Notes under the pieces: model-generated
Seen by the model: the letters and a program-made list of their open reading frames with translations, nothing else
What the model was told of the DNA's origin: nothing
Databases searched by the model: none
Program-made: the position numbers and the translations under genes
In this document: positions 1,509 to 6,235 of the stretch, piece after piece
How the letters are laid out: each line of letters starts with the position of its first letter
How positions within the stretch are numbered: the first letter of the stretch is position 1
Assembly (NCBI GenBank): GCA_008501765.1
Contig: QQUE01000001.1
Span: forward strand, 1-64,000
Direction: 5' to 3'
From: Calditrichota bacterium
GTDB lineage: Bacteria; Zhuqueibacterota; Zhuqueibacteria; Zhuqueibacterales; Geothermadaptataceae
Length of the DNA stretch: 64,000 bases

Positions 1509-1526
1509 TCAGCCTTGATTTTTTTG

Positions 1527-1554
1527 TTTCTTTTTTGATCAAGCAAAAAAGAAA
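1527..1554. repeat. perfect 11-bp hairpin
   Basis: TTTCTTTTTTG (1527-1537) and CAAAAAAGAAA (1544-1554) are perfect inverted copies around a 6-nt loop. The hairpin lies immediately next to the larger inverted repeat and may belong to the same element. Confidence 0.6.
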
Positions 1555-2050
1555 AGATTAAATGGTTAATACTAAAGTAGTTATTCGCTTAAATGCGGAG
1601 TTAAAGGCTCAATCAAAAATATTTTATTGCTTTAATGTCCCAAAATTAATAGAATAGAAGGGTTATCATATATTATCTATTCGATGCTCTTTGATTTTGG
1701 CGAAACCGGAGAATTTGCAGGGAGAAACATTTCGTTTTATTTAATACTGCAACTGATTATTACGCAATAACTTGTAAATTGCCCTATTTTACCAAAAAGT
1801 TTACTTTTATAACTTCCTTCTGAACCGAATTCATCCATTGCCCAACCGCTCAATAAAAGTAAAAAGGGGCCAAGTGGATAGCACATACGATTTCGTACCG
1901 CTTGTGCCTGCTTAATTTGGAGCATTCATATTTAATTCGTTTTGGCAGTCGTTCCATGGTATTAAAAGGCATTAGCTATTCAGCAGTCCCTCTTTTTACC
2001 CAGCGAGAGCGCTCCTGCAGTTTTTCAGATTTTCCCAAGGAGGTATTATT

Positions 2051-2260
2051 ATGGCAGAGCGGCAAAGAGGCGTCGTGAAGTGGTTTAACGCGAACAAAGG
2101 CTACGGATTTATCGTGTCCGAAGGAGGAGAGGAAGTCTTCGTACACTATTCAGCCATCGCGGGGGATGGTTTTAAAACGCTGGAAGAAGGAGTCAACGTC
2201 GAATATGATTTGACCGAAAATGAACGGGGGAAACAGGCACGCGAAGTGACCGTTGTTTAG
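2051..2260 (+). CDS. csp: cold-shock domain protein (CspA family)
   Basis: This 69-residue single cold-shock domain protein has the typical family length. The nucleic-acid-binding motifs RNP1 (KGYGFI, about residues 17-22) and RNP2 (VFVHYS, about 29-34) are both intact, as is the opening GVVKWFN strand. Such proteins bind single-stranded RNA or DNA and act as RNA chaperones. A strong AAGGAGGT ribosome-binding site sits at 2037-2044. A rho-independent terminator follows at 2277-2310, so the gene is monocistronic. The upstream leader contains a GAGAGCGCTC palindrome that could be structured. The identity is secure; the particular paralogue is not. Confidence 0.95.
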
Positions 2261-2276
2261 CCGGCCAGGAAATTCA

Positions 2277-2310
2277 ATGCAGTGTTTATCAAGAGCACTG
2301 CATTTTTATT
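2277..2310 (+). terminator. rho-independent terminator of the cold-shock gene
   Basis: ATGCAGTG (2277-2284) pairs with CACTGCAT (2296-2303) around an 11-nt loop, followed by a T-rich tract. It overlaps the last codons of the convergent asparagine-synthase gene, so it may serve both strands only weakly in the reverse direction. Confidence 0.85.
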
Positions 2311-4033
2311 TTATCTTGTTCCCCTGCCGCCAAAACTCAAACGCGAGCCACCAATCCAGTTCATTTGCTCGTGAAATATCCCCTGAATAAAAATCTGCAG
2401 CACACTTTTTGAGATAATTTAGGTTAATAAACGGATATTGTTTTGTTGACTGCGAATGAATGATGCCCAGAATATAATCCTGTAATGCGAGTAAAAAATC
2501 AATGTGCAGGGTGTCAACAAAGGCTAAATTGAGTTTTGTTTTGACCGCCGTCCAGGTTCTGGCAGCCATGGTGCCGTACGAAAAAGGATATGTCGTGCTG
2601 CCTTTGACCAGCGGAAAAGAATTTAGTTGCGCATTGTTTTTTGCAATCATTTGTCGGAATAACGAACTGTTTTGCCGTTGGGATACGGGAAGATTGAGCA
2701 ATAATTCGACGATATCCGGTTGTGCGAACGGCATGAAATTGGGCACGATGGCATCGAGACGGGCTTGCTCATAGGCATAATAATTTGGCAACCGTGTGCG
2801 AACTGAAAATAGGTCGAGAAAATTGTCGATGCCGATTTCCCTGATTTGCGGCATTTCCTGCCAGACATTTTGCAATTCGATTATCGCACTCTTTTGTAAT
2901 TCATGCCCAAAGTCAGTATCGAAAAAATTGCCGCGGAAAAGGTTAAAATATCGGAATACCGCAGTGAAATCAGGGTGCTGCAGCCGGTTACCCAAATTTA
3001 TTTTTAACCGGTTTAAAAATTGCCGCCGTCCGATTTCCCCAAATCCACCGTCGATCATAATTTTATTGTGCCGATTCAATTGATCGTAATTACCTAACCG
3101 CAGGGCTGTCGAAGCAGGCGCGATGAGGTTTGTGGCGCAGCAATATTCGCGAGCCAAGTCTATAACAAAATCCACATCCCCATTTATATCGGGAAAGTGG
3201 GCATGGGCGAGGCCAAAATCATCAGCTATTTTTTTGGAGATTACCACATCCGGGTGCGCTGCAACACCGAAAACATGGGTGGCGAATTCAGATTTGTCTT
3301 TTTTATGTGTCAGACTGAGCAGAAGCCGGGAATCCAAACCACCGGAAAGTCCAATGGATGGCTGCCTGATTGATTCGATGTTTATTGTGGAAATGAGGGA
3401 TTGCGTGAGCTTCATTTCATTGGAGTCACCGGTCGATTTATACTCCCAGGGCACATTCTTTATTTTCAATCCTGATTTATCGAAAGTGGCAAAACCGCCT
3501 TGCCCCAGTCGTTTTGAATTTGTGGTTAACGCCTGATCGCAGCTCAAACCGTTAAATGCCAACCAATGGCTACCGAAAGTATTTGTGTTAATTTCAGTCG
3601 AATCCACCATTTGATTAAGCCAATCAGCACGGGATGAGAAATGAATTCCGGGCCCATTTTCACGAAAATAAATTGTCCGCAAGCCGAGGGAATCGCTAAA
3701 AAACCGAATGTGCGTGGCATCCCATAAAACGATAGCAAAATGGCCATTGATATGACTTAGTACTGGCTCATTCACGTTTAGTATTTCGATCCAATGTTCT
3801 GTCGCGAGGGGCACACATTTTTCGGCTTTCAGATTCAATCCCAATCCAGTGACAACAAATCCGGAATGTTCATCGAGCTGGTGATAAAGGCAGGTTTCGG
3901 GGAGCCCGGCGCAGCGCAAGTGAAAGTGCGGTATTTCAAGTTCATAAAGCGGTTTGGGGATGATTTTGGTGAGAAAGGCGCTGTACCGTGCGGCAGTTTT
4001 ATCAAGCGAAAAATATCCAATCAATTGGCTCAT
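2306..4033 (-). CDS. asparagine synthase-like protein lacking the glutaminase cysteine
   Basis: This 575-residue protein has the two-domain layout of glutamine-hydrolysing asparagine synthase: an N-terminal Ntn-like domain of about 1-190 and a C-terminal AMP-forming synthetase domain with the pyrophosphate loop SGGLDSR at 230-236. Standard AsnB starts MCGI and uses Cys2 as the glutaminase nucleophile. Here the start is MSQLIGYFS, so there is no nucleophile. Loss of Cys2 is known in lasso-peptide cyclases and in beta-lactam and carbapenam synthetases, and in ammonia-dependent forms. No lasso precursor, leader-binding protein or protease lies nearby, so the product cannot be assigned. The gene is isolated, with the hairpin array immediately upstream of its start. 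Confidence 0.85.
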   Translation of the reverse strand: MSQLIGYFSLDKTAARYSAFLTKIIPKPLYELEIPHFHLRCAGLPETCLYHQLDEHSGFVVTGLGLNLKAEKCVPLATEHWIEILNVNEPVLSHINGHFAIVLWDATHIRFFSDSLGLRTIYFRENGPGIHFSSRADWLNQMVDSTEINTNTFGSHWLAFNGLSCDQALTTNSKRLGQGGFATFDKSGLKIKNVPWEYKSTGDSNEMKLTQSLISTINIESIRQPSIGLSGGLDSRLLLSLTHKKDKSEFATHVFGVAAHPDVVISKKIADDFGLAHAHFPDINGDVDFVIDLAREYCCATNLIAPASTALRLGNYDQLNRHNKIMIDGGFGEIGRRQFLNRLKINLGNRLQHPDFTAVFRYFNLFRGNFFDTDFGHELQKSAIIELQNVWQEMPQIREIGIDNFLDLFSVRTRLPNYYAYEQARLDAIVPNFMPFAQPDIVELLLNLPVSQRQNSSLFRQMIAKNNAQLNSFPLVKGSTTYPFSYGTMAARTWTAVKTKLNLAFVDTLHIDFLLALQDYILGIIHSQSTKQYPFINLNYLKKCAADFYSGDISRANELDWWLAFEFWRQGNKIK

Positions 4034-4102
4034 GAAGGGAATTTACAGCTTGTTTGTCCTCAATTGCAAATTGTTTATCGTAATCCGCACTCAGTGATGA
4101 TG

Positions 4103-4711
4103 GGCAGGCCACAAGGGCCTGGGCTACGTGTTCGATTGAACGGAGATTTTGAGATTAGCCAACGAAAAAGATCGTAGCCCCACCCCTTGTGGGTGGATGA
4201 GATCGATGATACTCGTCAGGCAGGCCACAAGGGACAGGGCAACGGTTTCGATTGAATGAAGATTTTGAGAATCGCCAATTGAAATAAAATCGTCGTCCCA
4301 CCCCTTGTGGGTGGATGAGATCAAAAATAATCGTTGGGCAGGCCACAAGGGCCTGGGCTACGTGTTCGATTGAACGGAGATTTTGAGAATCGCCAACGAA
4401 AAAGATCGTAGCCCCACCCCTTGTGTGTGGATGAGATCGATAATTACCGTCAGGCAGGCCACAAGGGCCTGGGCTACGTGTTCGATTGAACGGAGATTTT
4501 GAGATTAGCCAACGAAAATAATCGTAGCCCCACCCCTTGTGGGTGGATGAGATCGATAATTACCGTCAGGCAGACCACAAGGGCCATGGCAACGGTTTCG
4601 ATTGAATGAAGATTTTGAGAATCGCCAATTGAAATAAAATCGTCGTCCCACCCCTTGTGGGTGGATGAGATCGATGATACTCGTCAGGCAGGCCACAAGG
4701 GCCTGGGCTAC
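4103..4711. repeat. tandem array of ~117-bp hairpin-forming units
   Basis: Five full units start at 4103, 4219, 4337, 4453 and 4569, and a truncated sixth starts at 4687, giving periods of 116-118 bp. Each unit begins with a CCACAAGGGCCTGGGCTACG-like arm and carries a near-complementary CGTAGCCCCACCCCTTGTGG-like arm about 80 bp later. Two unit types exist (about 116 and 118 bp), in the order A-B-A-A-B. Units are contiguous and do not preserve a reading frame, so this is neither CRISPR nor coding. Confidence 0.9.
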
Positions 4712-4771
4712 GAAAGGGTGTGCGTTTTGTCTGAAGTGGTGCGCCGATAGATGCATCGGCGCAGATGAATG

Positions 4772-6235
4772 TTAATTCAAATCACTTAAATCCGGCAATT
4801 TTCCGAGCACATCTTCGATGCTGAAATGTTTAATTTCACCGAGATTGAGCGCTTTCAAACCGGGTTCTATCTTTTCACGGTCACCAACGATTACGATGGC
4901 CATTTGCTCAGGCAGCACATATTTCTGCGCTACTTTGGCAACGTCCATGGCAGGCACTTTGAGAATGTTTTCAACGTAAACGTTAAAATAGTCTGCGGGC
5001 AGGCCGTAAAAAATCATGTTATGAATGGCACCCGCAATCGCTGCATTGGTTTCAAAGTTCCCGGGATATCCCAATGCGTCATAGTTTTTACCACGCTGCA
5101 ACTCATCGGCAGGAATCGGTTGGTGAATACTCTTGAATTCTTTCATGAATTCGACAATTGCTTTGTCGGTGACGTCGGTTTGCACGTTGGAATAGGCAAG
5201 AAATCGACCTTCGGTTGGGCGATAGTCCCACTGCGATCCAGCGCCGTAGGTATAGCCTTTATCTTCACGCAAATTGCTGTTTAACCGGGCAGCAAACGAC
5301 CCTCCGAGAATGGTATTCATCACCCGCAGAGCGAAGTAATCGGCTGTTTTGCGTTTAACGCCGACATGCCCAATACGCAGAACAGACTGTGCTGAACCGG
5401 GCTTGTCTACCAGGAAAATCGTCCGCTTCTCGACCTGTTGCGCGGTGGGGACCTCAACTTTGTTTAGCGTACCTTTTTTCCAAGCACTGAAATTTTTCTC
5501 TAATAACGGCAGGAGTTGCTTTTGGGTAACATCGCCAACAACGATAAAAACGGCATTATTAGCTATGAGATTGTTTTTGTAAAAATCTGTTAAATCGTTG
5601 ATTTTCACTGAGCGCAGGGATTTTTCATCGCCGGAAGTACTGCGGCCATAGGGATGAGTTTCACCGAAAATAGTTTTATTAAACATATGCGTGGCTATGG
5701 TTCCCGGTTGATCATGATTTTGAACCAGACCGTTCAATCGTTGTTTAACGATACGCTTGAGTTCATTTTCAGGAAAATCCGGGCGCAAAGTGACATCGGC
5801 CATCAAAGCAAGGGCAGCCCCCATTTTTGAAACTGGAGTATTCAAACTCACCTCGGATGAATGCAAGCCGGCGCTCGTACTTAAATTGGCGCCGAGAAAA
5901 TCGATCGCGTCAGACAAGGCCAACGCATCTTTTCCAGCGGCTCCTTCATTCAGTAAATCCATTGTCAGCGAAGCAAGCCCGAGCTTGTCCGCAGGGTCAT
6001 TCACCGATCCGCAGCCGATGTGCAGGTTCACCTGAACCAGCGGGACATTATGCTTTTCCATCAAATAAACTTGAATACCGTTTTTAAGTACAAATTGCTG
6101 GAGCGGCGGCAAGTTAAGCGAAGCGACAGGGCCAAGTTCCGGGGGAGCAGAACGGTCGGGTTTTTGCGCAAATCCATTTGTCATACCGGCAAAAACCAGC
6201 AGCGACGATAATAGCATTTTCAAATATTTTCCCAT
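4772..6235 (-). CDS. M16 family peptidase-like protein, catalytically degenerate partner
   Basis: This 487-residue protein begins with a Sec-type signal peptide (charged start, hydrophobic LLSSLLVFAG, NGFAQ cleavage region), so it is exported. The two-lobed M16 (insulinase-like) fold is recognisable, including the HPYGRSTSGDEKSL stretch and the GYTYGAGSQWDYRP segment of the second lobe. Where an active M16 enzyme has HxxEH, this protein has GLASLTMDLLNEG, so the zinc site is absent. Paired M16 proteins often combine one active and one inactive subunit into a heterodimer. Its start codon overlaps the stop of the upstream active gene (TAATG), implying coupled translation at fixed stoichiometry. 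Confidence 0.88.
   Translation of the reverse strand: MGKYLKMLLSSLLVFAGMTNGFAQKPDRSAPPELGPVASLNLPPLQQFVLKNGIQVYLMEKHNVPLVQVNLHIGCGSVNDPADKLGLASLTMDLLNEGAAGKDALALSDAIDFLGANLSTSAGLHSSEVSLNTPVSKMGAALALMADVTLRPDFPENELKRIVKQRLNGLVQNHDQPGTIATHMFNKTIFGETHPYGRSTSGDEKSLRSVKINDLTDFYKNNLIANNAVFIVVGDVTQKQLLPLLEKNFSAWKKGTLNKVEVPTAQQVEKRTIFLVDKPGSAQSVLRIGHVGVKRKTADYFALRVMNTILGGSFAARLNSNLREDKGYTYGAGSQWDYRPTEGRFLAYSNVQTDVTDKAIVEFMKEFKSIHQPIPADELQRGKNYDALGYPGNFETNAAIAGAIHNMIFYGLPADYFNVYVENILKVPAMDVAKVAQKYVLPEQMAIVIVGDREKIEPGLKALNLGEIKHFSIEDVLGKLPDLSDLN

Follow-up and report, generated by a model that had tools for sequence, protein, structure and literature searches.

What kind of element is the tandem array that lies between an M16 peptidase-like gene and an asparagine-synthase-like gene near the start of this DNA, and does it serve those genes as RNA or belong to a system of mobile DNA? 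The original prediction for the window (the whole stretch of 64,000 nucleotides that was analysed) placed tandem units of 116-118 bp at 4103-4711, in the order A-B-A-A-B plus a partial copy, between these two genes. That description holds. Tandem Repeats Finder called 4103-4712 with a period of 116, 5.2 copies and 85% matches, and the partial copy is of type A. The array lies 60 bp 3' of the M16 stop codon and 71 bp 5' of the asparagine-synthase-like start.

4103..4711, no strand assigned: REP pairs repeated in tandem, with five units and part of a sixth, A-B-A-A-B-a
2306..4033, minus strand: asparagine-synthase-like gene on the downstream side of the array, given as context; weak Asn_synthase match (25.1 bits, cut-off 21)
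4772..6235, minus strand: M16 peptidase-like gene on the upstream side of the array, given as context

The asparagine-synthase-like protein also scores 24.4 bits against GATase_7, below the cut-off of 25, and it has a relative in three of the seven genomes of the family, each of the three belonging to this genus. As for the array itself, we consider it very probably a tandem cluster of GTAG-tagged REPs (a BIME, or tandem REPIN cluster) whose REPs were dispersed by a RAYT and then amplified locally. This explanation rests on the anatomy of the REPs, the genome-wide covariation of their stems, a RAYT gene with these REPs on both sides, and spacers that are specific to each locus.

Each 116-118 bp unit contains two GTAG-tagged REP palindromes in opposite orientation, built to a single 23-nt design: GTAG, two nucleotides, a 6-bp stem and a CTTGT loop. 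In the window array, the REP that we call X lies on the minus strand with the stem CAGGCC/GGCCTG, and Y lies on the plus strand with the stem CCACCC/GGGTGG. A unit is X plus Y with the GTAG tags facing, which makes it a tail-to-tail heterodimer, and neighbouring units are joined head to head. Folded as single hairpins, X and Y reach -6.4 and -6.2 kcal/mol, respectively (z about -2.7). Because tag and loop are common to both, an X can also form a duplex with an inverted Y, 20 nt long with 15-17 pairs and a 3-nt bubble. The 20-bp imperfect inverted repeat of the original prediction is just this, one REP facing another; its arms were correctly seen, its span is about 84 nt in place of about 100 bp, and what had been missed is that each arm is itself a small palindrome. 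The pattern GTAGCCCNNNCCCTTGTGG, allowing up to three mismatches, matches 11 times in the window, every time inside the array (mean in shuffles, 0.16), and the REPs follow one another as -+-+-+-+-+-, the tandem alternation of orientation that marks a BIME. Another alternating cluster, of 14 REPs, is found at C20:114929 of the same genome (G000). The REPs of the window array are as follows.

4105..4127, minus strand: REP, X type, GTAG CC CAGGCC CTTGT GGCCTG
4174..4196, plus strand: REP, Y type, GTAG CC CCACCC CTTGT GGGTGG
4221..4243, minus strand: unit 2 X REP, degenerate, GTTG tag, 4 of 6 stem pairs
4292..4314, plus strand: unit 2 Y REP, tag altered to GTCG, stem intact
4339..4361, minus strand: REP, X type
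4408..4430, plus strand: unit 3 Y REP, one stem pair broken
4455..4477, minus strand: REP, X type
4524..4546, plus strand: REP, Y type
4571..4593, minus strand: unit 5 X REP, degenerate, GTTG tag, 4 of 6 stem pairs
4642..4664, plus strand: unit 5 Y REP, tag altered to GTCG, stem intact
4689..4711, minus strand: REP, X type, closing element of the array

The type-A units (1, 3 and 4) are 94-96% identical to one another and the type-B units (2 and 5) 92%, as against 81-85% between the types. It had been suggested that paired changes maintain foldability across these units. The suggestion finds no support, because pairs are lost in the type-B units, whose tags are also broken (GTTG in X and GTCG in Y), with four of six pairs retained in the type-B X stem. 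From A to B, the sole foot pair changed on both sides passes from T-A to A.C and is lost as a pair, a G-C pair elsewhere in the unit hairpin turns into G.T, and one further pair is missing in unit 5; folding energies run from -19.6 to -22.3 kcal/mol for type-A units and stand at about -16.5 kcal/mol for type B. Compensatory change between the arms of the unit was sought in all five units and none was found. The companion suggestion of gene conversion is plausible: unit 3, though of type A, has a stretch resembling type B, GAATCGCC, and A and B cores occur with mixed linkers along the window array, a pattern that fits gene conversion or unequal exchange. With their damaged tags, the type-B units are probably poor RAYT substrates that have been carried along by recombination. 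They may even be dead passengers, since a GTTG tag abolished cutting by the S. maltophilia enzyme (PMC8266576), and their GTTG and GTCG tags offer a direct test of the need for an intact tag.

The array has many counterparts in the 5.9-Mb genome. An X-core pattern matches 56 times and its reversed control not at all, and a Y-type pattern matches 120 times against 10 for the reversed control, the X and Y sets overlapping. The Y-type loci behind our cluster counts are those of the matches listed, 100 of the 120. A REP scan of 183,320 bases, fetched because they match the X or Y patterns, returned 118 matches as compared with eight in a reversed-sequence control; eight of the 118 were set aside as chance matches or degenerate copies, although the one at C11:154964 is probably a true degenerate REP. 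Among the matches listed, the 110 REPs kept form 22 clusters, which provides the other copies on which the original prediction depended, and 14 of these clusters have three or more members and hold 100 of the 110. The clusters sit between mechanical ORFs, two being overlapped by a short ORF and one containing the RAYT gene. The tag is nearly invariant in the kept REPs (G in 110, T in 110, A in 102 and G in 108), in a scan that itself demanded three of the four tag positions. One locus, L118 (G000:C14:834568-834790), holds five REP-like elements on one strand, 50 bp apart, in a head-to-tail array unlike the others, and four of the five have four of six stem pairs.

The stem arms of these REPs covary. 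In 124 REPs extracted blind to the variable stem pairs, standard pairs fill 464 of 496 cells (93.5%), compared with 33-49% for slid partners and, on average, 60.1% (maximum 66.1%) for shuffled arms; counting each of the 65 distinct sequences once, the values become 88.1% versus 37-45% slid and 54.1% shuffled. Each of the four variable pairs occurs as several standard pair types, and since all four vary and yet stay standard, the stems are evidently kept by compensating change. The covariation once expected between arms is therefore to be found genome-wide in the 6-bp stems of single REPs, and between the unit arms of this array it is absent. With a tag at one foot of the palindrome, a short covarying stem-loop, and high copy number in intergenic DNA, the family has the features of GTAG-tagged REPs. 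Gene orientation is uninformative: as taken from mechanical ORFs, the 22 clusters divide into 15 same-direction, 4 convergent and 3 divergent sites and the 32 gaps of the window into 23, 5 and 4, so that clusters are enriched at neither convergent nor same-direction gene pairs, and this likeness to background lends the REP-cluster explanation no support.

The probable source of the transposase activity is a gene with a product of 162 aa, at C20:86169-86657. Its product scores 107.5 bits against NF047646 (REP-associated tyrosine transposase; cut-off 80) and 32.6 bits against PF01797, aligns with the E. coli TnpA-REP structure 4er8 (E 2e-10) through its HUH and Tyr regions, and contains DHLH and YILENPVR. 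Its C-terminal motif reads NPVRSN, where the published NP(L/V)(R/K)xG ends in G. The gene is bracketed by inverted REPs, one on the plus strand at C20:86115 (about 30 bp before it) and one on the minus strand at C20:86664 (a few bases beyond its end), and more REPs lie to either side; RAYTs flanked by inverted REPs have been described (PMC2817692). Judging from its sequence and setting, this RAYT probably spreads the genome's REPs.

A PF01797 profile search of the genome yielded four genes, and four Y1-type genes were encountered besides the RAYT (L048, L049, L050 and L138; three from the profile and one from another search). The array might accordingly derive from a common IS200/IS605 insertion sequence as its miniature form, moved by one of these other Y1 transposases. 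We give this very little credence, as X/Y-type REPs are absent from the vicinity of all four, other inverted repeats being present there instead, and the bracketed gene exceeds the cut-off of the REP-transposase equivalog. The repeats at these other genes are of their own kinds. At L049:1626-2306 (G000:C10), a Y1 gene (1634-2266, plus strand) has palindromic repeats at both ends (GTGCCAGGCACTT...) that do not resemble the window REPs; at L050:1468-2123 (G000:C4), a Y1 gene (1522-2082, plus strand) is bracketed by 41-nt palindromic repeats (CCCTTGCGAAGG...) that are 90% complementary; and at L138:3463-4150 (G000:C6), a RAYT-like gene (3482-4150, minus strand) is bracketed by palindromes with GTAG feet (GTAGTCAGAGC...), which may represent a separate, second REP family.

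The spacers separate dispersal of the REPs from amplification of the array. Tag-side spacers are 88.4% identical within a locus, 38.4% between loci and 37.7% when shuffled, and for loop-side spacers the values are 87.7%, 35.1% and 35.0%, whereas the REPs themselves average 78% identity between loci (with the window's pair of degenerate X REPs added by hand, and spacers shorter than 5 or longer than 120 bases left out). Spacers that are alike within loci and unlike between them indicate that REPs were dispersed first and that each site was then amplified with its own spacers, which bears out the local expansion originally proposed. The repeat period likewise differs by locus, at 116-118 bp in the window, 146 bp at C20:114929 and about 165 bp on C21 and C8. 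No sign was seen that a REPIN, a pair with its spacer, was dispersed as one mobile unit, spacer identity between loci being at the level of shuffled sequence. One array, at L036:1397-2415 (G000:C20), is a very regular 146-bp repeat of seven copies with a 97% match, and every unit of it adds to X and Y a third hairpin, GGTGCCCCGGCC...GGCCGG.

By blastn, the spacers of the window array occur nowhere else in the genome, its REPs alone recurring, so that the last step here was local amplification. The same result could be read as simple tandem copying of an inverted repeat that arose by chance, without the help of a transposase. As a complete account this has next to no chance of being right: the same 23-nt REPs stand in 22 clusters among the matches listed, with unrelated spacers, and they bracket a RAYT. 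Plain duplication is contradicted by these dispersed copies and survives only as the last step of the REP-cluster explanation.

Related genomes show the family to be lineage-limited: of the 82 genomes of the phylum, two carry the X REP (at most one mismatch), and both belong to this genus. REPs are present in the congeneric genome G001 (67% complete), where the best match to the RAYT is weak (E 1.9e-6, 24% identity), so that REPs and the RAYT gene are not seen together there; in G002, a congeneric genome that is 97% complete, both the REPs and any match to the RAYT are absent. At one intergenic site common to G000 and G001, where the flanking sequences (about 1.5 and 1.3 kb) share 73% identity, G001 has one REP and G000 has two X/Y units, the last X bearing a one-base insertion. 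An empty orthologous site for the window array was not found in these genomes: G002 carries both neighbouring genes on different contigs, each beside other genes than here, and the M16 contig of G001 starts inside the M16 gene, leaving the gap of the array unassembled.

Alternatively, the array could have been kept for its RNA fold, as a 3'-end stabiliser, terminator or leader in the transcript of the M16 or the asparagine-synthase gene, and the original prediction had placed it in the RNA of one of these genes. Flanked by genes on one and the same strand and 60 bp beyond the M16 stop, it would be suitably placed for such a role; the first type-A unit folds better than its shuffles (z -3.55, DNA parameters), and REPs lie closer to the 3' end of the upstream gene than to the start of the following one in 12 of 15 same-direction clusters, a raw count without a baseline. 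We nevertheless regard this account as very improbable. The first type-B unit folds near chance (z -1.49), spacers of different loci are unrelated, and the M16 orthologue of G002 (72% identity) has other neighbours and no REP array in its flank. Rfam at gathering score gave no match in the 64 kb, either to a riboswitch or to another known RNA. Neither a terminator-like site in the array nor a promoter-like site in 3900-4900 was found, counts in the region being no higher than in shuffles. The array is organised like a substrate of DNA transposition, and in annotation the gap between the M16 and asparagine-synthase-like genes is best entered as repeat DNA rather than as a gene-specific regulatory RNA. 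An effect of the array on the 3' end of the M16 transcript, through stabilisation or termination, is possible as a side effect.

At the level of DNA, we regard the REP-cluster explanation as well supported, and for cutting and amplification we look to what is understood of the transposase family. The RAYT would recognise REP DNA in single-stranded, folded form and nick beside the GTAG-tagged hairpin, so dispersing REPs into intergenic DNA. Once an inverted pair stood at a locus, the pair and its local spacers would be multiplied, either by the RAYT or by replication slippage and unequal exchange, and gene conversion would afterwards mix types A and B. A more speculative idea, which we think rather unlikely, starts from the X stem CAGGCC/GGCCTG, present in 47 of the 118 scan matches across loci: X may be near-constant from locus to locus and the Y stem typical of each, its changes compensated, with the transposase reading X by sequence and Y by shape only; a dispersed X would then recruit a Y at its new site, or give rise to one, before amplification in place. 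If true, the X/Y asymmetry would reflect a spread-then-amplify cycle that accounts for the origin of BIMEs. To our knowledge, the route by which BIMEs form is not settled. Fourteen arrays of at least three REPs each share their REPs, not their spacers, and have one cognate transposase, and in such a system dispersal can be separated from local amplification.

Tandem REP or REPIN clusters (BIMEs) with RAYTs are already described in print. In P. fluorescens SBW25, inverted REP pairs are tandemly reiterated with their flanks and clusters adjoin RAYT genes (PMC3116915), an arrangement found here as well; by contrast, the paired REPs here have different stems, spacers are unrelated between loci, and 100 of 110 kept REPs are in clusters of three or more, whereas SBW25 REPINs are mostly singlets (PMC3116915). 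GTAG REPs form tail-to-tail heterodimers in mostly intergenic clusters reiterated with flanking DNA (PMC3733652), and our family shares their terminal GTAG, short stem-loop, heterodimers, dimer clusters and mostly intergenic location, together with the two unpaired bases that follow GTAG in GTAG-1 and GTAG-2. Its stem/loop consensus with the CTTGT loop sets it apart from those families as the text describes them, though it may be identical to one of the 24 (PMC3733652). The alternation of REP and inverted REP in tandem and the homologous transposase are as in E. coli BIMEs and TnpA-REP (PMC8266576; PDB 4er8), but the 6-bp stems here are perfect and have no E. coli bulge, and the layout is closer to that of group 3 REPs such as those of Marinomonas, with a 5-bp stem two nucleotides from GTAG (PMC8266576). 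What sets the present system apart is its REP sequence, the unrelated spacers between loci and the predominance of clusters.
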